Shown piece after piece: positions 18,262 through 63,811 of a stretch of DNA of 64,000 bases; the stretch's first letter is position 1, and every line of letters begins with the position of its first letter. This stretch comes from Pythium myriotylum. Lineage: Eukaryota > Oomycota > Peronosporomycetes > Pythiales > Pythiaceae. The translations under genes and the position numbers were made by a program. The notes below the pieces were generated by a model, which saw nothing but the letters and a program-made list of their open reading frames with translations, searched no databases and had not been told where the DNA came from. The DNA is taken from assembly GCA_023091665.1 (NCBI GenBank), contig JALJCQ010000015.1, positions 3,286,001-3,350,000 on the forward strand, given 5' to 3'.

Positions 18262-18295
18262 GACAAACAAAAATGAAATGCTGAATTTTGTTTTT

Positions 18296-21300: not shown

Positions 21301-21316
21301 CATTGCGACCCGTATC

Positions 21317-21332: not shown

Positions 21333-21505
21333 TTCTATGAAGTTGGAGACAAACATGTGAGGGTGAGGGTGGGAGAGAAAGCTTCAGTCGACCGTTTATT
21401 GGAGACAATCAGACGGAATATCGGTAAGGTGATCTACTCGATTTACTTGGAGTTTGGTGTTTCCACCAGAAAGCGCAGAATATATTGTGAAGCGTCGGTC
21501 GCTGA

Positions 21506-27040: not shown

Positions 27041-27070
27041 GGCAGAGTTCTCTTTTAAGAGAACTCTGCC
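27041..27070. repeat. 30-bp palindrome at the right-arm junction
   Basis: Two perfect 14-base arms, GGCAGAGTTCTCTT and AAGAGAACTCTGCC, flank a TT. The same 16-base motif occurs once at 27868-27883 and, mirrored, at 21317-21332. With its flank, TTCATARAAGGCAGAGTTCT is common to 27033 and 27860. Confidence 0.9.
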
Positions 27071-27211
27071 GATCCAAGGGCAAGGAATGCCGTTAACGCT
27101 GCATGTCGTGCTTTCGAGACGATCCTCGCGTACTATAACGAGACAATCACTCGACACGAGGCTGCTACAGCTTCGATTGCACGTGTAGGTCTCCTCGCTC
27201 TTACACGGGAG

Positions 27212-27694
27212 ATGCAAAGGCGCGGGGCCCCCATTGAGCGCGTGCTGCATGTCGCTCCAATTTCGATCGCAGTGACAATACCTGGTGCAACCAGCATGCT
27301 CACACTCGATGCTGAGTTTTCCAACCACTTAGGACCCATTTCTGGTCGAGCTGACACACTGCTGCTCCGTCAAGTCGACCAACGGGCCTATTATGCACCA
27401 TTTCTCGTGATGGAGGTCAAGCTTGGAAGTCTGACACCAGGCCTTGCAGAATGCCTGATTGCAGCGGCATTACTCGGCGAGCGCAGCCAACTCGACTTTG
27501 TCCTTGGGATTGTGACAAATCTACGCGAGTGGATCTTTGTCCGCGTGGAGCCTAACCGTGTTGCTGTCAGCGATGTGATCCCGCTTGCCGTCAACAATAA
27601 TAACCGCGCTCGTCGTGACGCCAACTATGGTAATGGGTCGCTAGAACATATCTTCGGCATCATCGCTCGGCTTTGCTGCGGAGAAATTCAGTAG
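27212..27694 (+). pseudogene. PD-(D/E)XK nuclease-like gene, 5'-truncated copy
   Basis: 160 codons from the first ATG (MQRRGAPIERVLHVAPIS). The homologous frame is open back to 27071, where it stops at the palindrome. The core residues are kept: Asp in SGRADTLLL and ExK in FLVMEVKLG. It differs from the left copy at scattered positions (for example HLGPIS for HLGSSS, VDQRAYYAP for VDQRTDYAP). With the N-terminal part lost, it may be non-functional, or it may be a short active form. Confidence 0.6.
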
Positions 27695-27867
27695 TCAGCG
27701 ACCGACGCTTCACAATATATTCTGCGCTTTCTGGTGGAAACACCAAACTCCAAGTAAATCGAGTAGATCACCTTACCGATATTCCGTCTGATTGTCTCCA
27801 ATAAACGGTCGACTGAAGCTTTCTCTCCCACCCTCACCCTCACATGTTTGTCTCCAACTTCATAGAA

Positions 27868-27883
27868 GGCAGAGTTCTCTTAA
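27868..27883. repeat. 16-bp GGCAGAGTTCTCTTAA motif, right-arm copy
   Basis: Inverse of the inner half of the palindrome at 27041-27070. The two could be terminal inverted repeats of an element of about 820 bp holding the nuclease gene. No transposase is seen. Confidence 0.6.
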
Positions 27884-27899
27884 GATACGGGTCGCAATG

Positions 27900-30359: not shown

Positions 30360-30738
30360 CGTTCTTATTACCTTGCAGGCGAGCTCAGCACCTCGGGCAG
30401 CAATGGCCTTGCTTGTGGAGTTGTGGAGCCGTTGGAGAAGAGGGGCGTGTGAGGTCTGGGACGTGGCACTTTCCCATCGCTTTCTTGAAGGCAACCGACA
30501 ACCGACACGGAACACAACTATTCAGTCAAACACGAGTCAGTCGATATAAGATGTAGTACGAACAGTCTTTACCTGAATGAAGAATGCGCGAGATGTGGAC
30601 GCAGCCGAATAGTTGCGATCCTAGCCGGGAATACCATCACCTCCGAATATTTGAATCCATGTAGTGGAACACGTGAATCTTTCATTGTGAATACGAATGG
30701 CATAGAAAACATAACAGCGAGGTAGGCCCAAAGCCGTG

Positions 30739-32961: not shown

Positions 32962-33360
32962 GGCGGGCGTTTGGAGCGACCCGGGCACGGGGGAACGCGG
33001 GGGGCGGCGCGATCGAAAGCTCTTGGAACGGCGCTGCACGCTGGCGCTGGTCGCGCGGTCGAGGACGCCGTCGGGGGCGCGTAGAGAGGCGCGCCGCTTG
33101 GGGTTCCTCCCGGTTCTCTCCAAGGTTTGCTTGAAGCCAGGGTCAATGTTCTCAAGGAAGAGGGCTTGGGTGTCCTCAGATTCTCTTTGGCAACTCAGAT
33201 CGGGTTTCTCAGATTCCAAATCGGGTTTAGAAGGAGCGCACGGGGGGAAGGTTTTAAGAGAGGCTGTGCGTGCTTCTCGCTAAGTAAACACTGAGTGGTT
33301 GTTGGCGAGTCTCATAAAGTGAACCACGAGCAGCTCCGAGAGAAAGAAAGGAAGGGCGTC

Positions 33361-35895: not shown

Positions 35896-37700
35896 ATGCA
35901 TTTCCGTGCATTTTGCCCCTTGAACAACCTTCGACGTCGACTCACCCATGTATGGGAGGCGACCCAAGTCGAGCTACAGGGGTATTACTCCCTCCAGAGG
36001 TTCGAGGAGCTCCTCGCGCACGCCAAAACGAGCTCTGCGACGAAGAACTGGGCCACAATCATGCTCGCACCGCTCCCCGCGCTGTTGGCTCTGTTGTTTA
36101 TTGATACACTGCCGCTCAACCCACCAGAGGCAGGTTTCATGCATCAAACGTCAGCTTTATACATAAGAATATGGGCGACGGCGTTCACAGGCTCGATGAT
36201 ATTTACTCGCGGCATCCACCTCAGCACTCCAGCACTCCCTCTCTCCCCTGGACGACTTCTGATCATGGCCATGGTCCCAGCAACTGCTACAACTCTTGCA
36301 TTTGCCGCGCTCGGTAAGTATTGGGTTTTCCCCACGCCTTTCGGGTTTCAACTTGCAGTCTTCCCGGGAATAATCATTGCGATGCTCATGTCTTGGTACT
36401 CGTGGAAAAGTGTCCTCACAAATGACTCAAAGGCGAAGGTCCGAGCTCGTTGCTACACACAAGCTCTCGCGGCCCAAGCAAACCTCTTCCCGGCGTACCT
36501 CGCCTACTCCACGGCATTCACCCTCGCTGGAGGAAAATATCAGCAAGTAGTAGCACTCTCTTTGCCCGTGTTGAAGGTGCTCTTCAAGAATCTCTTTCGC
36601 AAAGGCCTGTACTACGTCGAAGATCTCTCTCCAGTGGCAATTGCCTGCAGCATCGACGCTTTCCACGCCATGTTTGTGGCTACTACGATTCAACAAGGTG
36701 GAGGCCCGACTACAATCCTCTTTGTTGCAGTTGTTGACATTGTCCAACTACTCGTGTCCTACAACGAGATCTTTGCTTTAGTTCGTGATGTTAAGCGAAT
36801 CGCAGACGACAACAACTTAGCAGCTGTAGACGGATTCTCGAGTGGAAGCAAACGATGCCGCGCGCCTTGTGATCATTCACGATTGATCCCAACACTTCAA
36901 TTCAATCCCAGCATTGTTCATTTTTGCCTCTTTGTTATTGAGACCAACCCCCGGATCCGAGACCATCCTCGTGTTGCATTGCCCTGTTTCCTGCGAGAGC
37001 AAAAGGCAACACCCATCCAGCTTTCAGATGCGCGCGTTTCCCAGATCCTCCCCCAGGGGCAGCTCAACATCACAAGCAACCGAGGCAGAGAGGTTGTTAC
37101 TCTGACAGACCCACTGACCGATGACGAGAGAGCACAACTCCAGATCATATCCAGCACTTTCAAATTGCCGCACATGATCGAGTTCTATGTCTTGATCGAA
37201 TACATGGAGGTTGCTGTCGCGGCAATTTACAGTACGTCTGTTCCTGAAAGTGTTGATCAAAATGCAAAGACTAAATTACTTTTTCTGTATAACAAGCTCT
37301 GTACGTGATGGGAATGGCACATATGCCGAATCGAGTGTACTACAAGCAGTTCATTGCGCTCGACCGCGAAGAATTAGACATTACCATCGTGCAACTCGCA
37401 CTGTACACCTCTTTCGAGGCGGTATCACTCGTCCTGTTCTGCATGACGACCAATCTCCATCTTCAGCACGTTTCATCACTTCAGCAACTGGTGTTTGTGG
37501 TCCAGAAAGAGTGGAAGATCGTTGTACCGACCTTAGCGCTGTGGGCGGTCTTGGTAGTCATGTCCAATTTTGGACACGTGGGTACGTACCCCTTGGATGC
37601 ACTCCCACCGAAGAGATCACCCACCATTGGGCCATTATGTCGATTAGGAATGAATGGACTTCACCTTCCAGTTCGAGTGGGTGCGAGGTTCACATCATGA
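35896..37700 (+). CDS. Multi-pass membrane protein, divergent member of the local family
   Basis: Two exons, 35896-37231 and 37297-37700 (phase 1), about 579 residues. It follows the family plan: an N-terminal basic/aromatic stretch (YYSLQRFEELL in place of LGRYSVEKL), the segment DTLPLNPPEAG after membrane helix 1, YVEDLSPVAIACSIDAFHAM in place of LDDISTDVTICxVE, then LIEYMEVAVAAIY before the intron and four final helices. The intron sits at exactly the same codon as in the gene at 48152. The final family motif (DFTFQF) is found only in another frame at about 37661-37678, so the last 30 residues may be altered by a small indel or a mis-called intron. It is much more diverged than the 45-64 kb copies. 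Confidence 0.7.
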
Positions 37701-45926: not shown

Positions 45927-47795
45927 ATGTTGAATGAACCGCCGAAGACCAAGTCCAAGCCTGCCGCGTCGCCGTCGATCGCTCCCAGTCGACGCGATAC
46001 GCGCGCGCGCGTGTCGCCAGGCGGGGACGACGGGCGCGCTGGACGTTCGACCTTTCAATCCACAGCGCAAACGCGCATCGAGAGCGATGGAGACGGCTAT
46101 GATTGCAGCCATCGAGCACCGTCTCGGATGGAGGTTTGGTGGCAAGGCATCCGCAAGAGGTACGCGTTCTGGGGTCGTTACTCAGTCGGCAAACTGCAAG
46201 CCTTTAGCGACTACCAGCAGCAGCACTCGCTCACTCGCACTGTCGTGTTGCTGTGCGCGATGTCGTTACCATCGATTGTCGTTTTGATCGTGCTGCTTGC
46301 GATTCCATTGCAGTCGCCAGCACTAGGCCCAGCGCACAACTCTGCGGCCTTTGCACGGTCGTTTGTCTCCCACATCGGCGCGTCGTTTTGTATCACGCTG
46401 GTCGTCAAGCAAGCGCTCGAGTTCAGCGATCGCGTGTATCCGTACTGGTGGTGTCTCATCATGGCATGCCTCGCGTCGGGCACGAACGAGACTCTCTGGA
46501 CCGTGCTCTCGTTCCTCTGGCGGTTCCCAATCCCGTTCCGCGAAGTGCTCTGCGCTAACACGTGGCTCTTCTGGTTCCTCTTCTACCACTACGTGACCAT
46601 GCGCGGCCACTTTGCGCTGAAGAAACGTCGCATGCGTATCTATTTACCGGTCTTTACCGTCCAGTTCGGCATGTTTTACGTCTTCCTCGGGCTCGCCGTA
46701 CTCTTCACCTACCTAGGGCTCGCGGGCCAAGTGGCACTCGTGCTCTTCGTCCCCCCAGTGAAAGTTTACATCAAACGTCTCTTCTGGAGACTCACCAAGC
46801 AACTCGACGACCTCAGCACCGACGTGACAGTGTGTGTAGTGGAGATCTCGGCCTCGATGTACCAGTGTCTCGTGATGCAGTACGCTGCATCTCCCGCGAT
46901 CCCCGTGCTCTTCTTCGTCGTCGACGTGCTCCAGGCTGCAGTAGAGATCGCGCTTTTCGTTGACCACAGCTTTCTTGTACGTGGTGAGACCGCGATCGCG
47001 GTCGCCGTCGACATAATCGCCCACGCTCGCGTGGTTGAGGCCAAGCGGCTGGGCCAAATGCAGGACTCACAGCCTAACACGAGCTCCCATGTCTCTGCAA
47101 AGACAGGAATCAAGTCAGTCGCGAGTGCATGCGAAGGCGGAAAGCGATCAGTTGCATCGTTCTCGTCGCCCGTCCCCGGCGCTGAAGGCTCGCGTCGTGA
47201 ATCACGTCGATCGTCCACAGGACTTCTCAAGATGGCCGAGGCTGCCGTAGAGGCGATCCACCGCCAAGTGCCTTCCGGCCAGTTCCTAGACTTTCGTCCA
47301 GGCAATCGAGGGACGCCAAACTCAGTTGAACCCGCGAATCCTCAGATCGTAGATGGTCTCCCGATTCCTCGTCTAACCGACGCGAGGCTGCTCACGCAAC
47401 TCTTGCGGCTACTGTTCGCGACCGAAATGCTCGTATTTGTCGAGTTCATCGAAGTGGTGCTCGCTCTCCTGTACGTCGTCGTGTTCGGACTCGCGTCGGT
47501 GTTACCGGGCGGCACGTACGTCGTCTCGCTCATGGACATCAGTGACCACGACTTTCGGTACGCCATGACCAACGCCGGTCTCTATCTCGCGCTCGAGATC
47601 GTATCATTCGCGTTGGTGTTGTGGCTGTTACGCCGCAAGTGCGGGCTCTCAACGGTGTACCAGGTCGCTTACGTCATGGAACACTACTGGATGACGATCC
47701 AGGGCAAAGTCGTGACCTGTCTCCTGCTGCTACTCAACCTCGCCACACAACACCAGGGGACAGACTTCACGTTCCAGTTCCTCAAGAGCCATTGA
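45927..47795 (+). CDS. Multi-pass membrane protein of the tandem family, copy 1
   Basis: One exon, 622 residues from MLNEPPKTKSKPAASP. Plan: basic disordered N-terminus, GRYSVGKLQAFSDYQQQ, about seven membrane segments (LLCAMSLPSIVVLIVLLAIP, SFCITLVVKQALEF, FPIPFREVL loop, FYVFLGLAVLFTYLGLA, AIPVLFFVVDVLQAAVEIAL), the motif LDDLSTDVTVCVVE, a Ser-rich cytosolic loop of about 150 residues, then LLTQLLRLLFATEMLVFVEF and three more helices ending IQGKVVTCLLLLLNLATQHQ with GTDFTFQF. Substrate and function are unknown; channel, transporter or receptor are all possible. This is the most diverged of the array copies. Intron-free, unlike copy 2. Confidence 0.75.
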   Translation: MLNEPPKTKSKPAASPSIAPSRRDTRARVSPGGDDGRAGRSTFQSTAQTRIESDGDGYDCSHRAPSRMEVWWQGIRKRYAFWGRYSVGKLQAFSDYQQQHSLTRTVVLLCAMSLPSIVVLIVLLAIPLQSPALGPAHNSAAFARSFVSHIGASFCITLVVKQALEFSDRVYPYWWCLIMACLASGTNETLWTVLSFLWRFPIPFREVLCANTWLFWFLFYHYVTMRGHFALKKRRMRIYLPVFTVQFGMFYVFLGLAVLFTYLGLAGQVALVLFVPPVKVYIKRLFWRLTKQLDDLSTDVTVCVVEISASMYQCLVMQYAASPAIPVLFFVVDVLQAAVEIALFVDHSFLVRGETAIAVAVDIIAHARVVEAKRLGQMQDSQPNTSSHVSAKTGIKSVASACEGGKRSVASFSSPVPGAEGSRRESRRSSTGLLKMAEAAVEAIHRQVPSGQFLDFRPGNRGTPNSVEPANPQIVDGLPIPRLTDARLLTQLLRLLFATEMLVFVEFIEVVLALLYVVVFGLASVLPGGTYVVSLMDISDHDFRYAMTNAGLYLALEIVSFALVLWLLRRKCGLSTVYQVAYVMEHYWMTIQGKVVTCLLLLLNLATQHQGTDFTFQFLKSH

Positions 47796-48151
47796 GTAAG
47801 TTTAGCTTCAGGATACGACCTCACGCATTTTCGAATAAAATACAATTTCGATATGATAATCTATATTCAGCAGTTCGGCGTGAAGAGACTCGAACCGAGC
47901 AAGACCGACGGTTGGCTTCTCCCCAGATGCGCGGACGAGATTTGTTGCCCGACCATCCCGGCCAGCTGGGTCCGGGGCCGCGAACAAGCCTCGTGGTCGG
48001 CGATCACCGCCTAACGGTCGGCCCCCAACTGGACGAGGTGTTCTGGTCCGCTATAATTGAGTCTCGTCCTGTGCGGACCCGCAAAACAGCGCCACACTGT
48101 GATCGTCACCGGCATTTGACACACTGTCAAACGCCAAGAGGGTGACGCCCC
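47796..48151. other. Intergenic between tandem copies 1 and 2
   Basis: About 355 bp, no gene or repeat seen; presumed terminator and promoter. Confidence 0.4.
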
Positions 48152-50194
48152 ATGGAGACGCGAAGCACGCTTCGGCGCGGCACGCTCGCGGTGGACGCGC
48201 GCAAATCGGTAGCGCAGATTGTGCCCATGGGGCCGGACGTTCTCCTTCGTCATCGCCATCGGAAACGGTACGCGCCCGTCGATTCCAAGTCACGAACAGA
48301 CGTAGCGAGCCAAGTTTCAGATCTCGTGCTGGCTCTGTACGAGTGGAAGGCTCAGCATCAATATCTCGGTCGGTACTCGGTCGATAAGCTCGTGCTGTTC
48401 GACCAATACTGCCAGCGAGCGTCTCGGTTTCGCGTTGCTGCCGTCGTTTGCCTCACACCGCTCCCTGTGATCGCCATTACGCTTGCATTTCAAGCGGTCC
48501 CACTCGTTGATCCTGGACTTGGTCCGGCTCGCAACTGGCGCCAGTTTGTGGGCTCCTCCGTGTCGCACTGCATCCTCTCACTCTGCTTGTTGGGTCCGTT
48601 CAAGCAGGCGTTACGTATCTCCGACTCGATCTATCCTCTCAAGCGTATCTTCTTCATCGCAGCCTTTGCTGCCATCGCAAACGAGCTCATCTGGATGATC
48701 CCAGCATTCTGTTGGCAGTATCCTGTGCCATTCCGCGAGCTCTTGGCGAGCCTCACGTGGTCTCCATTGTTAACAATCGGCCATGTCATGCTTGCTCGGC
48801 GTGTGGTCACGTCCAAGTGGGGGCGGATGAAAAAGTATCTCCCACTCCTGACAGCCAACTTCACGCTCTTCTTTGCGTTCCTTGGGCTCGCGCTCGTGTT
48901 TTCTCGGTTCCCGCCATCGGTGCAGCTCACGTGGATTCTTCTCTTCCCCTTATTCAAGTTCGCTATAAAGAAATGGCTATGGCAATTCTCGCGGCGGCTC
49001 GACGACATCTCCACCGACGTGACTATTTGCCTCGTTGAGATCTACGGAGGTCTCTACCAGAGCGTTTGTATGCAAATGCTCCAGTCGCTTCCTGCCGTGC
49101 TACTGCTTATGGTCATGGATCTGATTCACGCTGCTGTTGACATCTGGATGTATTCAAATCACGGCTTCATAGTCGATGGCACCAGCACGATCTCGACGGC
49201 TGTCAAGATTGTCGAAAGCTCACTCTTCCCTGCCGTCGGTGAGGCTCGTTGCCAAACTCAAATAGAGAGCCCAGAGAGTCAACCTCCTCGTCCTTTAGTT
49301 CGGCGGTTTACGTGGAGCGGCAAGAGCAGCAACAGCCGTCGAGGGTCTGGACGATCGCTCCAGACCGCAACCGTCGAGCCCTCCCGTTGCAGCTCCTTAT
49401 CACAGGCCAATACGCGTCGCCGAGGCTCTTTTTCGAGTGAATACGTCGCCCGATCACCCAACTCAGTGTTCACACCACCAGCCGATTACCAACGGAGATC
49501 ATCCTCGCGTCGCCAAATCCTCAATCTGAGTCGCCACTCAGTCATACAGTCTCGCGATCAGACATCGAGAACCTCCGTGGCGTCCACTTGCGGTGACGAG
49601 AGCAGTCGCTTCAGCAGCGTCCACGCGCTGGGCAAGCACAAGTCGAGCGTTCAGATCGACAGTGTCCTGATCTCGAGGAAAGACCAGGCCCGAATCCTCG
49701 AGCAAACCTTGCAGCTTCTCTTTTCTTGCGAGGTGCTCATTTTCATCGAGTACGTCGAAGTTATCATCCCGCTAGTTTACAGTACGTAGCGCCATCTCTC
49801 TTCCATTCGACTGACGTTGAACTGACCCTTAAGATCTGCACCAGCCGTTATCGCGACAGCATCGTGGTTCCTTCCGAATGCCAAGTACAACTTGATCCTC
49901 TGCACGATGTCTCGCACCCAAGTCGTTAGTGGACTAACGCACACACTGGGATATGCAGCGCTTGAGCTGCTATCATTCAGCTCCATGACGGTGCTCATGA
50001 AGCGCAAGTTTGGCGTGAGCACACTCTACCAACTCGCCTTTGTCCTCGAGTCGTACGCATTAACGGTCCAGGGGAAGCTCGTGGGCAGCTTCATTGTTAT
50101 CGCCAACCTCGCCACCGTGCATCAGGGCGTCGATATGCTTGCGCTGATCGGCCAGGGAGCAGGAAGTCATAGCTGCCGCGTTGGCTCAGTGTAG
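48152..50194 (+). CDS. Multi-pass membrane protein of the tandem family, copy 2
   Basis: Two exons, 48152-49781 and 49845-50194, phase 1, 659 residues. Shared motifs: YLGRYSVDKLVLFDQYCQ, LVDPGLGPARN after helix 1, YPVPFRELLASLTW, RRLDDISTDVTICLVEIYGG with LYQSV, KDQARILEQTLQLLFSCEVL then FIEYVEVIIPLVY, ALTVQGKLVGSFIVIANLAT and HQGVD. The Ser/Arg-rich cytosolic loop (about 355-500) is unique to each copy. After HQGVD the tail (MLALIGQGAGSHSCRVGSV) departs from the DFTF ending of its relatives. The intron falls just after the conserved EYVEV...VY segment, the same place as in the divergent member at 35896. Confidence 0.8.
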
Positions 50195-50537
50195 CCATAA
50201 CAAATGTAGCCATATTACATTTGACAATTGTACTCATATTATGGCTGAAAGAACGTGGGATGTGTCAGACGCGAGGCCCTCATAACGCTCCTTGTTGAAA
50301 GAATAGCATCCCGAGGCGAGTAGCCCTGTCCGGCTAGCCGTTTGTATCGGATATTTTTGAACGCGCGTGTTCTGTGCAAGCCACGATTCCGGAAATTATG
50401 TCGCTTTTGTGGCCCGATCTTATACCGAATAAGATTCCAGCACTCCAGGTAAATGGAATGTAAACAACGAGCTTTCATTTGCGGGTGGGTGCTCGGCGGA
50501 CCGGGTGCCCATCGTTTCGTTTGACAGCGAGTGCAAC

Positions 50538-53320
50538 ATGATCAAGCGCATTCGTAAACGTCTCAGCGCATTGATCGGTCATCGGGAGTTCCACTATCTC
50601 GGCCGCTATTCGGTCGAGCAATTCTGTCTCTTCGATAACTACCAGCGCACGACAAGCAGCTTCCGCGTCGTTGCGATTACTCTCTTGACTCCAATCCCAA
50701 CATTCCTCGCGCTCATGGCAATGGATATCGTTCCGATGAATAGCCCAGAAGCCGGAGCAGCCCAAAACGCTGTCGCGTTCACACGATCCACCATCTCTCA
50801 CGCCGTCATGACTTTCTTCGCCCTCTTACCATTCAAACAAGCTCTCAATCTATCCAACCGCGAATACTCGTTCACTAAGATCGCTGTGATTGCATGCTGT
50901 ACATCACTGACAGTGGAAGGGCTCTGTATCTCACTCGCATTTACATGGAGGTTTCCTGTTCCTCTCCGCGAGTTCATCGGGCTCCCGTTGTGGATGGCGA
51001 GTGTCTGCGGATATAACATTGTATTCGCCAAACGAGCAATCCGTCGATTGTGGAGACGAAACAAGCTGCAGCTGTATTTACCGATCGCTGGCGTGCAGGT
51101 GACTTTGTTCTATCTTCTTCTCGGTCTTTCAGTCGGTTTTCTGTACTTGCCACCAATACTTCAGGCAATCGCTGTCCTCTCATTCCCCGTTTTGAAGATT
51201 ACACTCAAGAGAACGCTGTGGAAATACGCCCACCGGCTCGATAACATTGCAACTGACGTGACCATTTGCATGGTCGAGGTCTCGGGGGCGTTATACCAGA
51301 CCGTCTGCATGCAATTCGTGACGTCACCGGTGCTGAGCGTGTTAGTCATGGTCACGGATATGCTTCAGGCAATTCACGAATTCGAATTCAATTGAGGTCT
51401 ATTGGTTTACTGATCTAGAAACCTATAGCCGGCGCTAGGCCACATTTACTGAGGATGACCCTCTCTCCAGTGCGCGATGTCCCCAGGAAGGAGATCCGCG
51501 ATGAGTTGGTGCTGCACATGATCAGTCGGGTGGTGCACCTGACTGCTGGCCTTACTGTCCATGGCTAGATTTGCTGCCGCGTCTGCCATCCGGTTAGCTG
51601 CCCGTGGGTGGTGATCCCAGGCTTTGACGCCGAGTGTGTCGGCGATTCGGCGCGCTTTCGCGTACTTTCCCTGGAGGATGCGGTTGAGGGGGATGTGTAT
51701 GTCCTCATCTGTCTGATAATAAGCATGCTGTCCCCGACGACGGAGAGTGGCGTCCAGTGGTGCTCTGCCGCTGCTGAGAGGCCGGCGAGGAGACCTTCGT
51801 ACTCGGCTTGATTGTTCGTGGTGGAGGGATCACCAAAAGCTCTGGCTGCAGAGAAGATGACTTCAGCGCCCGTCCCGTCAGAGGCGATTCGGACAACCAC
51901 CGCCCCCGCTCCTCCTGGCCCCGGATTGCCACGGGAACCTCCGTCGAAAAAGAGGAGATACTGCTCTCCCTGGCGAGTACTGCAGGAGAGGGGCTGGTCT
52001 TGCCCGGGTGCGCCGTCGCGGATCAGCTGGATGGCAGTTGCGGTATGCGGAGTTGCTGCGCTCGCTGCTGTGCGCGTCCACCTCAAGTCTCGTAATGAGG
52101 ACCGCAGAGCATTGTGAAGAATCGCGCTTGCTTGATCTGGCGTCCAAATTTCCTCCACCCGATCCGGCGCTGTGTCAGGCAATTCACGAGGTTCGAACGC
52201 ACACCAAGCTTGACTACATTGGGGACGGCCGCAATACACTTCAGACCGTTCAAAAGATCGTGGAGACCTCGATGACCAATCTCTCGACACGAAAACGCCG
52301 GTCAAGTCGGTCGATCGGTCGGGCAATTTCGGGCTCGCGGGAGTCGAGAAATAGTTTCGCAAACTGCGAAATGAACGTGTCAACTGAGAGTAACCCCAAT
52401 CGCTTTGCTTCGGTGAGCAAGCACCAGCGGCAAGGACGGTCGGTTGTGATCCCTCGATCCGCGATTCGGCAGACAGGGATGGTCAAGCGACAAAAGTCGC
52501 GACGTCACCTCTTGGACCTGGACAGAGCAACCCAGACGAATACCCATGACCGCGACGAACCAAGTGTAAGATACTCGAGCGAGTACGAGCCATCACTTCA
52601 TCGACTCACGAAAAAGTTGCGCACACATAGCCTGGCCCAGCGTTCAGACGTCGCAAGTCGACTTTCAATAGTGGAGAAGTGTCTTTCAATGCTTTTGGGG
52701 ACTAGTTTCTCTCGAAGAAGGTGGAAAGTCTACGTTGCAGACGATCACAACGCTACTGCAAATGAACCCGTGAAGCAGAAGATGGGCAATCCTTCAGCAG
52801 AGAAGCTTCCGACTCCCCCAGAAAGCTTTCGGGATAAAACTGACTCGATCCAACACGAAGCGCGGAAACGCAAAGCCAGCCTAGTGCAGATCGATGGCAT
52901 CCTTATTGCCCATCGCCACCACGCACGTATCTTGGAGCAGACGTTGCAGCTACTCTTTGCCTGCGAGGTGCTGCTGTTTGCCGAGTACATGGAAGTCGTG
53001 ATTATGCGCTGACACTCGGTGGCGAATGGCTCACGCCCAACGCCAAGTATAACATCGTGGTGAGTCCGATGTCTGGCGCTGCTGTGGCCTCCCAGATCGC
53101 GAATGCACTGCTGTACGCGCTACTCGAACTGGCGTCGATGCTTGCGATGTACTGGGTCATGAAGCGGAAGTACGGAGTCTCGGCCTTCTACCAGCTAGCG
53201 TTCGTGCTTGAGCGATACTGGATGACGCTACAGGGCAAACTTGTCGGCGCGTTCATCATCGTCATGAATGCCCTGACGATCCATCAAGGAGCCGCGTTCT
53301 TCTCAGAAAGAAAGATCTGA
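50538..53320 (+). pseudogene. Multi-pass membrane protein copy 3, broken by a LINE and a microdeletion
   Basis: N-terminal half at 50538-51379 (YLGRYSVEQFCLFDNYQRTT, FPVPLREFIGLPLW, LDNIATDVTICMVEVSGALY), interrupted after LQAIHE by a 795-bp LINE fragment, then resumed at 52190 (VRTHTKLDYIGDGRNTLQTV). The loop and HHARILEQTLQLLFACEVLL continue to 52990, where about 10 bases are missing after EYMEVVI and the frame is lost. The rest is readable from 53003 (LGGEWLTPNAKYNIV) to KLVGAFIIVMNALTIHQGAA. Two independent lesions mean it is no longer a gene for the full protein. The upstream frame starts without ATG before 50538. Confidence 0.88.
51365..52189 (-). mobile_element. 5'-truncated LINE (non-LTR retrotransposon) with RNase H, flanked by a 15-bp target-site duplication
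   Basis: TCAGGCAATTCACGA occurs at 51365-51379 and again at 52175-52189, on either side of 795 bp of foreign DNA; joining the flanks restores the membrane-protein frame. The insert, read on -, encodes an RNase HI domain: FFDGGSRGNPGPGGAGAVVV, TNNQAEYEGLLAGLSAAAEH and LSVVGDSMLIIRQ carry the first three catalytic acids. After a frame shift near 51710 comes HHPRAANRMADAAANLAMD with the last Asp, and a stop at 51446. Reverse transcriptase is missing, as expected for 5' truncation. The 3' end (towards 51380) is TTGAATTCGAAT rather than poly-A. Confidence 0.9.
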
Positions 53321-53694
53321 TCGATTTGGTGGTTGTGTTGGCGTGCCTGCCTGGATTTTGGCCTCACAAGCGTCGTTTTCAAAATCACGGCTACATGTAT
53401 AGATAAGAACATAGAGGCGTCCGATCCGTTTGCTGTGAGCCGACAGTACAAAATGCATAAGGTATGCGGTAATTTGTCGATAGTCGAATCTGGTGCGATC
53501 CAATAAACCCCGAAGTCCAAAGCCACTGAGAATTCTCTTCCAATTATAGACGTGCCTGAAGATTATTTCTCGAGTGCTGCTATGAAGCAGTCACTGATGA
53601 GAGCGCGCTCACTAAATCGCCCACTTGATTTCGACCAAGTTGTTCGAGTGCTTCAACAAATTTACGATGAACAGTCAGCGGTCTCAGTATTTCA

Positions 53695-53850
53695 CTGATC
53701 GATTGCCAGTGGTTCTCCAAGCGAAAAATCATAAATACGACCTCTCGATCTTTCACCAACCGAAGCTCGCACTGATACGAATTGGCGCTGCAGGGCAAGC
53801 TGGCCGGTGCGTTGCTCGTTGTGATGAACATTGAGATCGTCGATTCTTGC
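53695..53850 (+). pseudogene. Relic of another tandem-family copy (C-terminal)
   Basis: The stretch KNHKYDLSIFHQPKLALI followed, one frame over, by LQGKLAGALLVVMNIEI aligns with the last helices of the family (KYGVSAFYQLAFVLERYW and LQGKLVGAFIIVMNAL). A frame shift separates the two halves and no upstream part is recognisable. It marks a lost fourth + copy. Confidence 0.65.
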
Positions 53851-54767
53851 CGCTGGTGAGCAGCTCAAGCTCCCTGTCACAAATACTCCATCATATGATA
53901 TAAGTACATTTTATCAATAATGGAATTCATTGACGACAATGCGACGACCGATGGAAGATTCGAAATTTTGTCGGGAACCAACGAAAGGACCCTCCAAAGA
54001 TCTGACTCCCATACAAACTTCGAGTAACGTCAACTTTCACATGCGCCAACGAACCAACGGACAAACACGGAACATTTCGATCGTTGGTGCCTGTGTTGCG
54101 TAGTTACTCGGGCTGGTGGTGGACCGTTTGATTTGAGTTGATTTGTACCCTGGGCCGTGACGCCCCATTCACCTGGCACGGGCCGTGGTTACGTTGTAAT
54201 GGGTTACGGAACAATTTGTCCGCACAAAAGGTTTGCTGACCGGACAAATCGTTCTCCCAACTGTGCGGCCCCCAAAAAAACTGCTGGGTGGCGTCCGCAG
54301 AGCCTTTGCGTCTGCGAGGGCTTTCCCTTGTGGAGCTTCTGCAAGCGCCCGCGCCCCGTCTATGTCGATGACCGCTCCCGACAGCAACGGTCCATCCGTG
54401 CACGCATTCCCACACAATTCGACGACACATGCCCCGACTATGCACGCAATGGGTGCTGGCGTCTGCCGACTGATACGACCAGAAACGGTCCATTTCGGCA
54501 TTTCCCACCAATCCGCAGCGCGCAAAGCCCTCTATTCAGCGACTAGGGTTACGTTTCCGCCCCGCATCCCAGCCACCAGCTGGTCGCTGGGTAGTAGTAA
54601 TATCCAGTGGCAGTCGCTCTCGCTCTGGATGTGTTGGGGTCCCCGGACGCCGTCCAGTGCTGTCCAGAGCATGTCACTATCGCCGGGCTCACTCGTGCAT
54701 TCGCACTCTTCGCCCCAGAGCGAAGCCCTCTCTTCCTGTCTCTCTCTCTCTCTCTCTCTCTCTCGCC
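53851..54767. other. Intergenic, about 900 bp upstream of the glucanase
   Basis: No gene supported. It ends with a pure TC microsatellite at 54739-54764, four bases before the glucanase ATG, probably 5' UTR or core-promoter pyrimidine tract. Confidence 0.5.
54739..54764. repeat. (TC)13 microsatellite next to a start codon
   Basis: 26 bases of uninterrupted TC ending 3 bases before the ATG at 54768. Confidence 0.9.
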
Positions 54768-56183
54768 ATGCTCAAGCGCCTCGTGACGGCCGCCGCGTGC
54801 CTCGCGGCCGTGGCCTCGGGCGAGCACGTGCAGCTCAAGCTGCGTCGCGGCGAGATCGCGTCGCGCGCCGCCAACCTGGGCGGCTGGCTGCTCTCCGAGT
54901 ACTGGATGTGCTGGACCTCTCCGCTCTACAAGAACGTCGAGCCGAGCATCGGCATCACGGGCGAGTACGGCGTCATGAAGGCGCTCGGCAAGGAGCAAGG
55001 CACCAAGCAGTTTGAAGAGCACTGGCAAACCTGGATCACCGAGGAAGACATCGCCGAGATCGCCAAGACCGGACTCAACACGGTCCGCGTCACCACGGGC
55101 TACTGGATCATCAACGACGAAGACGACACGGACAAGTCCGAGGTCGCCAACACGTACCCTCGTGGAGGGCTCAAGTACCTCGACAAGCTCATCAACGAGT
55201 GGGCTGTCAAGTACAACGTGGCCGTGATGGTCTCGCTCCACGCCCACAAAGGCTCCCAGAACGGCATGGACCACTCGGCGCCCGTGGTCATGTGGAAAAC
55301 GGGCTGGAGCGACAAGCCCGAGAACGCCGAGAGCTCGCTCAACTACGCCAAGTTCATCGCCCACCGGTACAAGGACAGCGTCGCGTTCCTCGGGCTCAAC
55401 CTCATGAATGAACCGACCAACCCGACCGACTACGGTGTGCTCTTCAAGTACTACAAGGACGCCTACAAGGCCATCCGCGACGACGGCAACGACTGCATCA
55501 TCGTCACGTCCCCGTGGCTCCAGGAACAAGGCCCGCCGACCATGATGGACTTTATGCCGTGCCCCGACTACTACAACGTCTGGCACGAGTTCCACGTCTA
55601 CTACAAGTGGGGATGGGAGAAGGCGTCGCTCGACTCGGTCTTCAAGGAGGCCGGTAACTACGCCGCGACCCACTTCAAGTCGTGGACGGGCAACCCGGTC
55701 TTCCTCGGCGAGTGGAGTCTCGCCACGGCCGACGAGGACGCTCGCACGGAGGCGGAGCTCACCAAGTTTGCCGAGATTCAGATGGAGCAGGCCGAGCAGT
55801 CTCCGGTCGGCTGGGCGTTCTGGGCCTGGCGCCACGGCGACGAGACCAAGACCACGTCGGGCTGGTCCATGCGCCAGCTCATCAAGAAGGGCATCATCAA
55901 GATCCCACAGGAGGAACGCAAGGGCCCAGGACGCAACCCCAAGTGCCCGACGATCAAGGACCACGTCTACAAGAACGTCTCGCTCTCGTCTGGTAGCGGC
56001 AGTGGCAGCGTCGGCGGCAAGACCGTGCAGCTCTTCACGCCCGACAAGGTCAAGGCCGCTGATACGTCCAACATCACGGCGCCGTCGATGGTCTCGCCGC
56101 AGGCCACGCCGGCCTCGTCGGCCAGCGCCCTGGGCGCGTCTCTCGTGGTCGCGGCCTCGAGCCTGCTCGCACTCATGCTGTAG
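54768..56183 (+). CDS. GPI-anchored GH5-type exo-1,3-beta-glucanase
   Basis: Hydrolyses beta-1,3-glucan from non-reducing ends, either remodelling the oomycete wall or digesting host callose. 471 residues: signal peptide MLKRLVTAAACLAAVASGEH; RAANLGGWLLSEYWMCW, the typical GH5 exoglucanase opening; catalytic acid/base Glu in LGLNLMNEP (about residue 214) and nucleophile Glu in FLGEWSLA (about 313); substrate-site Trp/His residues in NVWHEFHVYYKW. A Ser/Gly/Thr-rich stalk and a C-terminal hydrophobic tail (ALGASLVVAASSLLALML) after small residues predict a GPI anchor at the plasma membrane or wall. Single exon; GC-rich third positions unlike the flanking membrane genes. Confidence 0.93.
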   Translation: MLKRLVTAAACLAAVASGEHVQLKLRRGEIASRAANLGGWLLSEYWMCWTSPLYKNVEPSIGITGEYGVMKALGKEQGTKQFEEHWQTWITEEDIAEIAKTGLNTVRVTTGYWIINDEDDTDKSEVANTYPRGGLKYLDKLINEWAVKYNVAVMVSLHAHKGSQNGMDHSAPVVMWKTGWSDKPENAESSLNYAKFIAHRYKDSVAFLGLNLMNEPTNPTDYGVLFKYYKDAYKAIRDDGNDCIIVTSPWLQEQGPPTMMDFMPCPDYYNVWHEFHVYYKWGWEKASLDSVFKEAGNYAATHFKSWTGNPVFLGEWSLATADEDARTEAELTKFAEIQMEQAEQSPVGWAFWAWRHGDETKTTSGWSMRQLIKKGIIKIPQEERKGPGRNPKCPTIKDHVYKNVSLSSGSGSGSVGGKTVQLFTPDKVKAADTSNITAPSMVSPQATPASSASALGASLVVAASSLLALML

Positions 56184-56320
56184 ATCGACTGAGAGTCTGT
56201 AGATATGCTGCAAGCAGAAGCAGTTGTGGTAGGATCTGTAGGTACGGTCTCCTGTTGAAAAGAACTAAGCAAATGCACTGATACGATTCGCGCGTTAGTG
56301 GGTTCTCAAGCTCTTCCATG
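56184..56320. terminator. Convergent 3' region between the glucanase and tandem copy 4
   Basis: The two stops are about 140 bp apart; both transcripts must terminate here. No hairpin or clear poly-A signal was recognised. Confidence 0.4.
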
Positions 56321-58534
56321 CTAGTAGTCGTCGTGGTACTCGAACTTGAACGTGAAGTCGGTGCCTTGGTGGACGGTCACGGCGTTGAGCACGACGAGGA
56401 ACGAGCCCACGAGCTTACCTTGCAGTGTCATCCAGTATCTTTCGAGCACAAAGGCCAACTGATACATGGCCGAGACGCCATACTTGGAGCGCAGAACCCA
56501 GTACATGGCCAGCATCGATACGAGCTCGACGAGTGCGTACACGGCCGAGGTCCAGAGCTGTTGCGTGACGACTGCGACGCTCATGCTACGCACGAGAAGG
56601 TTGTACTGGCGATTCGGCAGTCCCCACTCGCTGCCAATCGCGAGCGTGTACACCACGGGGATCGCGACCTCCATGTACTCGGCAAAGAGCAGCACTTCGC
56701 TCGAGAATAAAAGCTGCAGCGTCTGCTCGAGGATGCGAGCTTGGTCTCGACGATGGATCGTGACGCCGTCGATGACAATGTGGTGCGTACGACGCTTCTT
56801 GATCGAGCTGCGACGACGGACGAGTCGAATGGGCTTTCCTTCGAGCCGTCGAAATGGGGACTTGGACGCGGGTCCTGTGACGGTCTCACTTGGGACCACA
56901 AAGTAGGAGCTCGCTCGACTTGGCTCGAGTTCCTGCGCTGGTTTCGCCTCCTCGGAGGGTGTTGGGAGAGTTGAGAGGTCTGCGTACAACAAACTCACAT
57001 CCATGACAATGGCCGATCGCTTGGTCGGGCCAGACCGGAAGAACGGCAGTAAGCCCGAGCTCGCCTGGGCTGGTGGAAGTGCTGATGACTTGACCTGAGG
57101 CAGCGATGGGGGCAACGCCGACTCGGGCTTTGCTTCAATCTGAGCGTTGAAAGCGCGCAGTTCATCTGGCGACAGAAGACCACCAGACGCGATCCGTTCA
57201 AGCGAGCCCTTCCTTCCTAGCGGTGGCGGAGACGAGCCGATCGACGGTCGCCGGCCCTGCGAGTCGCTGCCGTGCAGCTCATCCAGATCCAGTAGCCGAC
57301 GCTTCTTCTTGCCGCTGCCCTGGCGCTCGTGGAGGAGCTTTGGCTGCATGATGACCGAGTTTCCTTGCAAGTACACCTGGCGTTTGCGTTGCCTCGGCTG
57401 TGCTTCGTCTCCGACCATCGAAACGAGCGATTCGAGTGAGCTCTGTCGGGAGTATCTGCGACTGAAAGGCGCAGCCACAAAAGGACCTTCGCTCTGGTGA
57501 CTTGACTCGACTCGTGACGACTCAATGGCCTCAGCCAGCGAAGCCATCGCCGTCGAGTGGGTCGTCGTTGACGAGCGGTCCTCCAGCTCCTGCGCGATCG
57601 AGCTCTCGACGATTTTGAGCGCTGTCACCAGCGTCTTGCGGCCGTCGCCCAGGTAGTCCACTTTAACGTACGTGTGCACTTCATGGATGGCCTGAAACAG
57701 GTCCATGACGAGGATGCCAAGCCCGAGCCACGGCGTTGAGACCGACTCAATACACACTGTCTGGTAGAGTGAGCCCGAGACTTCGAGCATGCAGATAGTC
57801 ACATCGGTCGAGACATCGTCGAGTCGGCGTGCGTACTTCCACACGAGCTCCTTTAAAACGACTTTAACCAGCGGGAACGTGAGCACCATGATCACCTGTG
57901 GGCCGATCGAGAGGTACGAAAACCCAACCGAGAGGCTCAAAAATAAATAAAAGAGCGAGATCTGCACGCCGACGATGGGAAGATACTGCTGCAGCTTGCC
58001 GCGGCGCCACATCCAGCGGATCACGTCTCGGGCAAAGATATAGTTGTATAAGCAGACACAGGTCATCCACACGGGCAGGCCGAGCATCTCGCGGAACGGC
58101 ACGGGGAATCTCCACACGAACGCCAACGGGATGCACACGGCTTCGACAGTCAGCGAGACGCAACACGCAATGAGCGCGATCGTGTGGAATGCGTACCCCC
58201 GATCCGGCAACTTGATGGCTTGCTTGAGAGGGAGTAGTGTAAAGAACGTCATCATGGCGTGTGAAACAGTCGACCGCACGAACGCGACGGCATTGTGGCT
58301 TGGGCCAGAGCTCGGACGGTTTAGCGGCACGGCGTCCACGGCCACAAGCGCGAAGACAGTTGGTAAAGGTGTGAGAAGGATCACAGCCGCGACTCGATAG
58401 CCACTCGTAGTGCGCTGGTAGTGGTCAAAGAGGTGAAGCTTCTCGATCGTGTACCGTCCGAGGTTGTGGTTGTCGCCCAACGTCGGCGCGAATCGCGAGA
58501 ACTGCGAACGCCCCCACTGCGCCAAAACCTGCAT
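56321..58534 (-). CDS. Multi-pass membrane protein of the tandem family, copy 4
   Basis: 737 residues from MQVLAQWGRSQFSRFAPTLG; the frame is open further upstream to 59212, but that part is antisense-like and overlaps the previous gene, so I rejected it. Motifs: NLGRYTIEKLHLFDHYQRTT, AVPLNRPSSGPSHNAVAFVR, FPVPFREMLGLPVW, RRLDDVSTDVTICMLEVSGS with LYQT, RRDQARILEQTLQLLFSSEV, LLFAEYMEVAIPVVY, ERYWMTLQGKLVGSFLVVLN and HQGTDFTFKFEY. The cytosolic loop is long (about 300 residues), very Ser/Pro/Arg-rich, with basic clusters, and contains RTHHIVIDGVTIHRRD before ARILEQ. No intron. Confidence 0.85.
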   Translation of the reverse strand: MQVLAQWGRSQFSRFAPTLGDNHNLGRYTIEKLHLFDHYQRTTSGYRVAAVILLTPLPTVFALVAVDAVPLNRPSSGPSHNAVAFVRSTVSHAMMTFFTLLPLKQAIKLPDRGYAFHTIALIACCVSLTVEAVCIPLAFVWRFPVPFREMLGLPVWMTCVCLYNYIFARDVIRWMWRRGKLQQYLPIVGVQISLFYLFLSLSVGFSYLSIGPQVIMVLTFPLVKVVLKELVWKYARRLDDVSTDVTICMLEVSGSLYQTVCIESVSTPWLGLGILVMDLFQAIHEVHTYVKVDYLGDGRKTLVTALKIVESSIAQELEDRSSTTTHSTAMASLAEAIESSRVESSHQSEGPFVAAPFSRRYSRQSSLESLVSMVGDEAQPRQRKRQVYLQGNSVIMQPKLLHERQGSGKKKRRLLDLDELHGSDSQGRRPSIGSSPPPLGRKGSLERIASGGLLSPDELRAFNAQIEAKPESALPPSLPQVKSSALPPAQASSGLLPFFRSGPTKRSAIVMDVSLLYADLSTLPTPSEEAKPAQELEPSRASSYFVVPSETVTGPASKSPFRRLEGKPIRLVRRRSSIKKRRTHHIVIDGVTIHRRDQARILEQTLQLLFSSEVLLFAEYMEVAIPVVYTLAIGSEWGLPNRQYNLLVRSMSVAVVTQQLWTSAVYALVELVSMLAMYWVLRSKYGVSAMYQLAFVLERYWMTLQGKLVGSFLVVLNAVTVHQGTDFTFKFEYHDDY

Positions 58535-58737
58535 GGGTCTGTCTGCTCTACCGAAACTCGGTTGACAGTAAGAAATCCACGCCCGGCGAAATGGATATTG
58601 TCCGACTGCTCGCCTGCTCGCCCGATCGGTCCTTCGAGGTTCGACCAAATTGAGCTCTTGGAAGCCGCGGAAACGACTTTCCTCGAAGCTATTCTTGCTG
58701 GTCCACTGCCAGTCTATAAACGTCTCCGCTAAGTAAG

Positions 58738-61178
58738 TCAGTGCCACCTCGACGAGCCGAAGCGTTCCAACACCATGCCGTAGTCGTACGTGAACGTCAA
58801 GTCCACGCCCTGGTGCACCGTGAGCGTGAGCCAGATGACGATGAACGAGCCGAGTAGCTTGCCGTAGAGCACTTTCCAGTACTTCTCGAGCACAAACGCG
58901 AGCATGTGCAGCGCTGAGATGCCGTAACGCTTCTTCATGACAATACCATGACCGCGAGCGAGAGTGATTCGAGCCCAGCGTACGCGAGCGAGCCCGAGAC
59001 TGTAGAGAGCATCTGCGAGTGCGACATCGATATGAAGAGCAAGTTGTAGCGCGCGTTGTAGAGTGGCCAGAGCCCACCGACGACAAGCCCGTAGAGCGCG
59101 GGCAGTAGCACCTCGAGAAACTCGACGACCACAAGTACCTCGCATGAGAAAAGAAGCTGTAGTGTCTGTTCCAGTATCCGTGCCTGATCTTTGCGCGGCA
59201 GTTGAATTCCATCGATCATGACTCGCGTGATACGCCGCATACCCTCGTCTTTATCGCTTGCATGGGACAGACAACTCGCTACCTTATCACTTGGCGAAGA
59301 CTTCGGAGGAGACTCTGGATCTACTACGTTCTCTGGGAGGGTCTCCACATCAAAAGTGCCAGGATGCACGAGCGATCCACGTTTTGAATTGCGAGACTGC
59401 AGTTTACTCGCGGACGAGCGCCTTGCGATTGGAGGGTGATCAGTGGAGTTGCCCTGGGCGGACACGAGCGAGTTGACGAGAGAGTTCGTGCGGGTCACGG
59501 AAGGTCGAGCAACTGCTGCTGTTGGGAGGGGGTCATACACTGAGAAAATGGGCATGGTTGGGGACGCTTTGAGAGTCTGCGACGAGTCCAAGGAGATGTG
59601 GCTGAGCGAGGCGAGATAAGATGACGCACGTCGGATGGGTGGCAGTTTGGTCGGACGATGGGCCGGACCGCGACCTGCCTGCGCTGTGGCTGATTCCGGA
59701 GCTGTCGCTGGAGACGGTGGCGCGGGCTCGTCCGGCGGTGACACCGCCGTGCTCGACAGTTCTGAGGAAGCGGCACTCGCGACTGAGATCCCGTAACTCG
59801 AGCCACTCGGCTGCGCACTCTGGCGCTGGTAATGGCTACGCGGAGAGGATTTTGCTGAGCGAATCGACATGGCCGTCGAGTCGAGCGAACGGCGACGTCC
59901 GCCAGTGAAATCTGATCGGCGAGTGTCGATGACAGAGCATCGCGGGGCGGGCAGGACCCCCTGGCTCTGCGGCAATCTCGGTTGATCTGGCTTTGATTCT
60001 GCCGATGCAAGCTCGATCTCGTACTTGTATCGGCTCAGGTCCAGCAGCCTCTTCGAGTGGAACGCCTTGACCATTTTGGGCTTGACAAACACGGAAGTAC
60101 CACTTCCGGAAGCCGTGAGAAAGTTCGGCAGCAGTGTATCTGAGGTTTGCTGCTTATTGGCAAGAGGTCGCTCATCAATACCCTGGTACACGCTACTTAG
60201 CACAATGCGAACAGCGGTTTGCACGGTCGACACGCCATCCGTGATATACTCATGGAAGACGTATACGCGCACTTCATAGAGCGCTTGGAAGAGATCCGAG
60301 AACAAGATCACATACTGGAGCACCTGAGACTTGGCAAACTGCAGGCACACAGTCTGGTACAAAGCACCTGTGAGCTCCACGAAGCAGATTGTGACATCGG
60401 TCGAGAGATCGTCGAGCTTGCGTGCTTGGCTCCAAACAGCTTTCTTGACCGCGAGCATGACAACGGGAAACGTCAGAACGAGTACGATCTGGGTGGCCGA
60501 AGAGAAGTACGCGAAGGCCACAGCAAGACAGAGAAAGCTGTAGTACATGCTCAGCTGCATGGTGACCATCGGTAGGTAGTGCTTGAGCTTGGGGAACTTT
60601 CGCCGCAGTTCTTCCTTGCCGAAAATCCAGTTGAACAGCGCAACAAACACTACGAAGAGAGGGATTGCCGTGACTTCGCGGAACGGTACGGGAAACCGCC
60701 AGAGGAACGCAGCTGATATACAGATAAACTCGAGCGCGACTGAGACGCAGACTCCGACGCGGAAGATCTTAGCGATCGAATAATACCGGTCACTTAGCTG
60801 CAGTGCCTGCTTAGTTGAGAGCAGGATCATGGACGGAAGCAGCGCGTGTGCGATCACGGATCGTGCAAATGCCACGCTGTTCTTCGCAGGCCCGGCGCGT
60901 GGGTCATTCATGGGCACGATGTCCATCGCGAGCAGCACGAGAAATGGAGGCAGCGGCGTCATTAAGATTACGCTGCCAACACGCCAGAGGCTCGTGGTTT
61001 CTTGATAGTGGTGGAGCGCGCAGAGTTTCTCAACCGAGTACCTACCAAGGTATTGATGCTGGGACTTCCACGCGTGGAACCGCCGCAGTGGCTCCTCGAG
61101 GGCCTCGGAGAGTTGAGCCCACTTGCTGGATGGCCGACCTCGCGCCGGCCCGGGCGAGGGCCGCTCGCGAAGAGGCAT
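58738..61178 (-). CDS. Multi-pass membrane protein of the tandem family, copy 5, one frame break
   Basis: Starts MPLRERPSPGPARGRPSSKW; motifs YLGRYSVEKLCALHHYQETT, FPVPFREVTAIPLF, RKLDDLSTDVTICFVELTGA with LYQT, KDQARILEQTLQLLFSCEVL then VVEFLEVLLPALY. The frame ends in LSLAVMVLS at 58935, but the family ending continues one frame over (MKKRYGISALHMLAFVLEKY, LYGKLLGSFIVIWLTLTVHQ, GVDLTFTYDY) to 58738. A single missing base near 58939-58943 explains this: either a real lesion or a sequencing error. The full protein would be about 813 residues. The downstream neighbour starts 204 bp on, in the same orientation. Confidence 0.8.
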
Positions 61179-61439
61179 TGAGTGCGACGAAAGACTTGCC
61201 CAGTTTCGATTTCTGAAAGGCTTACGTTGGTCCGACGACCAGAGCGACGGCTGACCAGGTGATGTCGACTGAATGGCTCCTTTCAGCTGCCTCGAAGTTC
61301 ATCCTCAGGTCGTCCGCCCTCGAGGAGGCTAAAAACAGAAGCGAATCTGATGCGCGGCGCGGTTGATCGTTGATGTTCTTCCGATCAGAATGTCGTCGAC
61401 GAACGAGCGTACGGGCAAATCAAAACAAAATCGAAGTCT
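61179..61439. other. Intergenic between tandem copies 5 and 6
   Basis: About 260 bp; nothing recognised beyond presumed promoter of copy 5 and 3' end of copy 6. Confidence 0.4.
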
Positions 61440-63811
61440 TTATCTGGACGGGTTCTGAGATCGTCGCAGCAGCGCGTCGTAGTCAAAAAGAAAGCTGAAA
61501 TCGACGCCCTGGTGGATCGTCGCAGTGTTGATAATCACGATGAACGCGCCGACCAGTTTCCCCTGCAACGTGAGACTATAGGTCTCGAGCACGAACGCCA
61601 GTAAATGGAAAGCCGAGATGCCGTACTTGCGCCACACAATGTAGTTCAGAACGAGCAGTGAGAGGAGCTCGAGCATCGCGTAGACCACCGAGGATATCAG
61701 AGTGGATTCCAAATTCCAACGGGTCATATCCATCGTGATGAGGTTGTATTTGCCGTTGGGTAACGCCCACTCGGTGCCGAGACACATTGCATACAGCACC
61801 GGCATGACGACCTCCATGTACTCAACGAAGAGAAGCACCTCGCACGAGAACAACAGCTGCAGGGTCTGCTCGAGAATCCGAGCTTGGTCCTTACGAGCGA
61901 CCTGGACGCCATCGATCGTCACGGGCGAGCTGCCGCTTCCACCGCTATTTCGACGACGCCGTTCAATCGACGCAGCGGCAGGAGCGTGAGTGGTCGATGA
62001 CGAGGATTGTGGACGCATCGCCGGGAAAGACGAGTGACGGACAGTCGGTGGTGCCGTCGACCGGGCAGATGATATTGCTGGCGTAGCAGACTCCCTGGAA
62101 GTGTTGACGTGCCCGACCACTTCTGGTAGTACGCGCGTGAGGCTGTTCCTGGACTGTAATGTAGGCTCTATTGGGGCCACGCGATCACTGTCAAGCGGGA
62201 GTGTCGAGTTGCTCGAACGTCTCCGGTAGAGTATGAGCCTGTTGGAGATTTGTCGCGCCATCAGTAATAGCCCACCATGGGCCGTAGCACTCTGTGAAGA
62301 GCTGGAAACAGACTTGACCACAAGTGACTCTGGTGGTGGCGAGCCGGAATTCCAGGGTTGTCCTCCAGAAATTCTGTACGAACAATCTTACGCAACGGGC
62401 CGCTTGGTCTTAGCCGAGGCACATCCGGCGTGTTATGACTGTTCGTGGCGTCTGGTTCCACCAACATGAGGTCCACGTCACGCGACACAATGGATCGTTG
62501 ATGGTCCGTCTCATAGAGAGACGAATTCTTTCGCTCTATCTCTCCTGGGTCGTCCATGTCCCCCTCAGCTCCAACTCCACGGTCGAGTGCATCGAACTCG
62601 CTCTTCCGCAAATCCATGAGCCGCTTCGACGCGTGCGTTCGGATCTGCTTGGGCTGCATGAACACGGAGCTGACGCTTGGTCTGCGCTGGCGGTGGCGCG
62701 GAATCACGGGACCGAGACTTCCGTTGCCGCTATGACGACGTGAGGCGGACGGGGGATCTGCCTGGGAAGTTGTCGACGAGTTATGAACCAGTGACGGCCG
62801 CTCGTCTGCGCCCGGGTAGATCGAGCTCTGCAGGATGGCCATCGCCGTGGCAAGCGTTGCTCGACCGTCGACGAGATATTGTGTTGCAAGGTACGCACGC
62901 ACCTCAATTATCCCCTGCACCAAGTCAGTGACCATGATGACGGCAGCGATTGCCTTGGACGCCGCGAACTGAAGGCACACAGTCTGATAGAGCGAGCCCG
63001 AGATCTCGACTATGCAGATTGTCACGTCTGTCGAGATGTCATCGAGCTGCCGCGCGTACTTCCACACAAACCTTTTGGCCACAACCTTGACGAGCGGGCA
63101 GAGCGCTATCATGAGCACCTGCACGACGAGCGGCACGTGAGCGAACACCATCGAGAGCGCGAGGAAGCCGTAGAGGATGGCGATCTGCGAGCCAACAACA
63201 ACGAGGTAGATACGCGTGCGTCGCTGCCGTCGTGTAAAGACGCCGGGCGTGAGCCACGCATGGAGAAAGACAACCACGATGCACCACAGCGGCGCGCCTA
63301 GCAGCTCACGGAAGGGCACGGGGAATCTCCACAGAAAGGCCAGTGGGATCCACACGCTCTCGATCATGACGCACGTGAGGAGCCCCAGCAACGCGACTTT
63401 TGCGATCGAGTACTTGCCACTTTCGTTGAGACGTAACGCCTGGCGAGCCGGCAGCAAGCACGCGGACGTCATGACTCCGTGGGAGACGATCGAGCGCACA
63501 AAGCACACGACGTTGTGCGCCGCACCGGCGCGCGGGTCGTCCATGGGCACCGCGTCCATCGCGAGCAACACGAGCACCGTCGGCAGCGGCGTGGCCAGCA
63601 ACACGAACGCGACTCGCCACCATGCGACGTGGGCCTGGTAGTCGTGGAACGCGTGGAGCTTCTCGACCGAGTAGCGGCCCAGAAACTGGTGCTCGGTCTT
63701 GAAGTGGTGGAGGCGACGCGGCAGCGCGAGCAGGCGATTGGCCCACGAGGCCGAGGCCGCGGCATCCAGCGGCGCGGGGCCGCTGGCGCTGTATCGACGG
63801 CGGCGTTGCAT
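61440..63811 (-). CDS. Multi-pass membrane protein of the tandem family, copy 6, one apparent frame break
   Basis: N-terminal frame 63811-62261 (MQRRRRYSASGPAPLDAAAS, FLGRYSVEKLHAFHDYQAHV, FPVPFRELLGAPLW, RQLDDISTDVTICIVEISGS) and C-terminal frame to 61440 (KDQARILEQTLQLLFSCEVL then FVEYMEVVMPVLY, LTLQGKLVGAFIVIINTATI and HQGVDFSFLFDY). The two overlap by 61 bases in different frames inside the Ser/Arg-rich cytosolic loop. No convincing intron joins them, so I infer an indel near 62290, or an unseen splice. The membrane and motif regions on both sides are fully conserved, which argues that the gene is or was very recently functional. Confidence 0.75.

Follow-up and report, generated by a model that had tools for sequence, protein, structure and literature searches.

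What kind of protein is encoded by the six related genes that lie at 45.9 to 63.8 kb of a 64-kb stretch of Pythium myriotylum DNA (the window; the whole genome comprises 58.7 Mb in 55 contigs), and does the novelty reside in this array or in the family behind it? We find that the genes belong to a large, real, and unnamed oomycete membrane protein family, in which the array is an ordinary, old, and partly decaying tandem cluster. In other words, the novelty resides in the family and not in the array, which represents one small clade, with some copies broken, of a family of about 149 loci for predicted membrane proteins of about 11 helices. A preliminary description, made from the letters of the window, had proposed an array of related genes with a divergent member at 35896, and this is borne out by a six-frame scan of the window with a family profile, in which every array gene has a stretch scoring at an E value of ≤1e-100.

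The extent of the family emerged from searches of the genome with five different members, which returned 83, 94, 117, 93, and 86 matching stretches. Merged by eye, and with fragments and pseudogenes counted, the five lists yield at least 149 loci on 22 contigs, a lower bound given that scoring in every search was confined to the top candidates; 105 of the loci have a family neighbor no more than 15 kb away, and these group into 29 clusters. Among 40 fetched stretches we found 72 family reading frames of at least 300 amino acids (aa), 54 of them 450 to 650 aa long. For a single unnamed membrane family in a genome of this size, such a number amounts to a repertoire on the scale of chemoreceptors.

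Protein relatives are found in Pythium and other oomycetes. In three protein searches, 9 of 7,991, 4 of 7,997, and 22 of 2,911 scored candidates were family proteins, the four coming from an alignment-based search and being closest to the first row of the alignment; candidates were limited by shared words, so absence of the family outside oomycetes is not thereby established. The named homologs, from Pythium oligandrum, P. insidiosum, [Pythium] brassicae, Globisporangium polare, and five Phytophthora species, bear no functional annotation beyond labels of the type hypothetical or transmembrane protein. In a tree with seven outgroup rows, 16 rows make up one clade (support 100/99): the six copies of the array, a further locus from the contig of the window, and nine homologs. 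Copy 1 sits on a long branch and several forks are unresolved, but proteins of P. oligandrum and P. insidiosum fall together with copies 3 and 5 (93/96). Hence, judged from the tree, some of the array duplications probably predate the divergence of these Pythium species. Identity between copies is 37 to 61% across the first core, which spans about 270 residues.

Like the preliminary description, we could not attach a name to the family, and a confident profile or fold match to a known family, which that description had singled out as decisive against its view, did not appear in the searches run. None of seven window proteins matched Pfam over the cut-off, nor did Pfam domains appear in 35 homologs, and NCBIfam gave no match over its cut-off. 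When 37 and 20 aligned members were compared with Pfam at E values up to 10, a scan limited by HMMER filters that discard most matches above about 0.1, no family was matched by more than two members. Sequence searches of the PDB returned noise, a 37-member profile giving five rows at E values of 0.9 to 9, mostly of low complexity. Likewise, the family is unnamed in the titles and abstract openings of the literature searched, a coverage that leaves out most subscription journals.

Within the window, three plus-strand genes are followed, after some 3 kb, by three on the minus strand; the divergent member lies about 10 kb upstream. The features are as follows, introns being candidates read from the sequence.

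35896 to 37700, plus strand: divergent family member; profile match 35932-37598; candidate intron 37232-37296 (65 nucleotides [nt]) at the same codon as that of copy 2
45927 to 47795, plus strand: copy 1, a single open frame; profile match 46164-47783; possible start codons at 45927 or 46128
48152 to 50194, plus strand: copy 2; profile match 48299-50137; candidate intron 49782-49844 (63 nt, GTACGT..CAG), 659 aa if spliced there
50505 (approximate start) to 53320, plus strand: copy 3, a pseudogene with an insertion and a frame change near 53003; profile match 50544-53299, broken
51380 to 52174, minus strand: insert in copy 3, with an RNase H/RVT_3 reading frame between 15-nt direct repeats
53783 to 53836, plus strand: trace of a C-terminal end
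56321 to 58534, minus strand: copy 5, a single open frame of 737 aa, whose structure was modelled; profile match 56327-58531
58738 to 61178, minus strand: copy 6, with a frame change at 58944, ahead of the last helices; profile match 58777-61127
61440 to 63811, minus strand: copy 7; profile match 61473-63748; candidate intron 62391-62330 (62 nt) in the loop, 769 aa if spliced there

The broken copy that had been placed at 50538 is indeed broken, but it is one gene split by an insert that encodes RNase H/RVT_3 (Pfam) and is flanked by the direct repeats at 51365-51379 and 52175-52189. A relic copy claimed at 53695 shrinks to a trace of about 50 nt that matches two copies by blastn (E value, 0.003) and was not detected by the family profile in the six-frame scan. 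The frame shift in copy 6 leaves no room for an intron. The candidate introns of copy 2 and the divergent gene share the GTACGT donor, and their placement at a common codon supports common descent. The reading frame at 54657-56183, which separates the plus-strand from the minus-strand genes, has no Pfam match at an E value of ≤0.001; we take it, by eye, to resemble an exo-glucanase-like glycoside hydrolase.

Two structural models offer a view of the protein. For a 544-aa P. brassicae relative, modelled from 37 rows, the mean predicted local distance difference test score (pLDDT) was 85 and the predicted template modeling score (pTM) 0.82; for copy 5 of the window these were 71 and 0.67, with the same helices and with most of the long loop below a pLDDT of 50 (the short P0023, P0030, and P0033 of the 35 homologs were excluded from the modelling alignments). 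Both models predict about 11 membrane helices, eight before a disordered loop and three after it, rather than the approximately seven and three of the preliminary description. Basic residues lean to one side of the membrane, from which we infer, weakly, that the N terminus and the loop are cytosolic and the C terminus is outside. Under this topology, FPVPF might form an outer turn and LDDxSTD an inner turn before helix 7.

The most telling feature is a set of seven charged positions, two basic and five acidic, in helices 6 to 9 on either side of the loop. Their class is kept in 94 to 100% of 105 to 112 sequences, some of them near-duplicate rows, while overall identity in the family is 20 to 25%. 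In P0008 numbering, K225 and K229 (helix 6) are basic in 99% of 112 sequences, E252 (helix 7) and D279 (helix 8) are acidic in 100 and 98% of 112, and in helix 9, E416 is acidic in 100% of 105, E422 in 98% of 107, and E425 in 94% of 108. It is unusual for charges to persist within membrane helices at such low identity without cause, and from sequence and model we consider that they probably make up a cation- or proton-binding gating core. This fits the earlier suggestion of a conserved transport or receptor core with copy-specific regulation, as do the disordered loops, but it does not settle the choice between transport and reception.

Tentatively, we favor a cation-gated permeation protein whose regulation differs from copy to copy; it could be a channel, a scramblase, or a transporter. 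The N terminus and the loop would lie in the cytosol. The charges would make up a single cation site (for Ca2+ or H+) in the inner half of the membrane, and this site would gate or power the movement of ions, lipids, or a small solute, working in the manner of the acidic site beside the TMEM16 groove. The loop would carry copy-specific signals for phosphorylation, trafficking, or partner binding. In favor of this proposal are the conserved charges, the confident model with helices that recur in copy 5, the Ser/Arg-rich loops with their recurrent motif, the size and clustering of the family, and the placing of TMEM16K and OSCA as the best natural membrane rows of a second-look aligner; TMEM16K, too, is described as binding Ca2+ between helices on either side of a cytosolic loop (PMC6718402). 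Several observations weigh against it. The charges are presumed to meet in space, and they could instead serve as structural salt bridges. Foldseek found no match in the PDB at an E value of ≤0.001 for either model. The aligner rows for TMEM16K and OSCA, obtained with the model of the relative, are below the level of trust, with scores within the chance range for helical bundles, an unrelated soluble protein as its top row, and two designed proteins among the channel rows. For the window copy, neither TMEM16 nor OSCA was among the best 50 of 247 aligned chains. A viral fold library likewise gave nothing at an E value of ≤0.001.

Acidic and basic residues conserved inside helices, together with the many related copies, would also suit a proton- or cation-coupled secondary transporter family whose copies handle different substrates. 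We regard this as unlikely: no transporter was matched in Pfam, NCBIfam, or PDB sequences, and pyrophosphatase, GltPh, and MATE folds appeared in Foldseek only at nonsignificant E values.

The main rival to the permeation protein is a family of chemosensory receptors, lineage-specific sensors of the environment in which each copy has its own in-membrane pocket and signaling loop. A birth-and-death pattern is typical of chemoreceptor families; the approximately 149 loci, 105 of them in clusters, conform to it, as do the pseudogenes and the age of the tandem copies. Insect odorant and gustatory receptors and their protist relatives (7TMIC) likewise form a large, diverging, and clustered multigene family. 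However, 7TMIC and G-protein-coupled receptors have seven helices and not the approximately 11 of both models, the fastest-changing part would be a cytosolic loop rather than an outer domain, and the in-membrane charges suggest a shared permeation or metal site, which leaves this reading somewhat improbable. No 7TMIC chain was among the best rows of the structure searches, which does not exclude one. A term search of the main text of a 2023 structural-screen paper found neither "oomycete" nor "Phytophthora" (PMC9998090).

Conceivably, the proteins constitute a new superfamily, known to date only from oomycetes, with an unsolved fold and an in-membrane charge cluster, whose approximately 150 cation-gated channels or sensors play a role like that of insect odorant receptors; this picture is speculative and rather unlikely. 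Should the family gate ions or lipids or sense cues, a missing part of the contact between oomycetes and their environment would be named, and with its seven conserved charges the family offers a direct way to test what it does.

The comparison with TMEM16 raises a further option, that the proteins truly descend, with much divergence, from the TMEM16/OSCA/TMC superfamily, having gained an additional first hairpin and lost the last helix. In TMEM16K, TM10 is described as lying at the dimer interface (PMC6718402). TMEM16 has ten helices, six before the loop and four after it, whereas the oomycete models have about eight and three and lack a counterpart of TM10; its two-Ca2+ acidic site lies between TM6, TM7, and TM8, and the family has conserved acids in helices 7, 8, and 9, which may or may not lie close together, with a motif register that is not significant. 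Although ANO10 (TMEM16K) is the nearest row, sequence and profile comparisons show no more similarity than chance would give. An EYxEV motif was considered as the TM7 calcium motif, being at first the best hhalign register (probability, 0.1%; P = 0.69). The register moved with a cleaned alignment, in which the reversed family profile outscored the true one (15.7 versus 14.7), and the motif was therefore dropped as evidence of descent. The starts of the aligned ranges at the N terminus disagree between aligner rows, and the likeness was not repeated with the second model, for which Foldseek's 48 matches held no TMEM16 or OSCA; the aligner re-aligns only Foldseek's own candidates, so absence there does not exclude the fold. 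Neither Anoctamin (PF04547) nor RSN1_7TM (PF02714) was among the Pfam rows at an E value of ≤10 for the 37 and 20 members, and true anoctamin and OSCA genes, with six RSN1_7TM matches over the cut-off, exist separately elsewhere in the genome. TMC (PF07810) had no match in the genome, but control genomes gave none either. Taken together, we consider such descent very improbable.

As a separate observation, one frame at G000 C29:169693-170271 matches both Anoctamin (weakly, below the cut-off) and RSN1_7TM (over the cut-off), a possible link between these two families.

The loop after helix 8 is disordered, rich in Ser and Arg, and the fastest-changing part of the protein, with both ends conserved. 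Loop identities are 25 to 39%, as measured on sequence of low complexity in gapped global alignments without a shuffle control. The loops had been thought to differ wholly between copies; however, 11 of 16 subfamily genes, against 0 of 98 other members, share a basic-LLDL motif. It is present in 9 of 13 complete loops, against a shuffled rate of 0.001 for a pattern that was defined after the loops had been inspected. Copies 3 and 5 and P0001 carry the form LLDLD, which recalls, as we see it, a clathrin box.

The shared motifs of the core are present, but less strict than first described. LGRYSVEK is exact in two copies (variants WGRYSVGK, LGRYSVDK, LGRYSVEQ, and LGRYTIEK) and FPVPFRE in three (variants FPIPFRE, YPVPFRE, and FPVPLRE), while LDDxSTDVT is the subfamily's version of a broader motif (consensus EDLaPEvVVFNVE) located where helix 7 begins.

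Elsewhere in the window, a 3,840-nt inverted repeat (18295-22134 and 27066-30905) has arms that are 98% complementary and 4.9 kb apart, each holding an 871-aa open frame without a Pfam match. A HECT ubiquitin ligase and a ubiquitin hydrolase lie on the same strand at 14602-16899 and 30742-33219, and each of these frames has a RanBP-type zinc-finger match below the cut-off.
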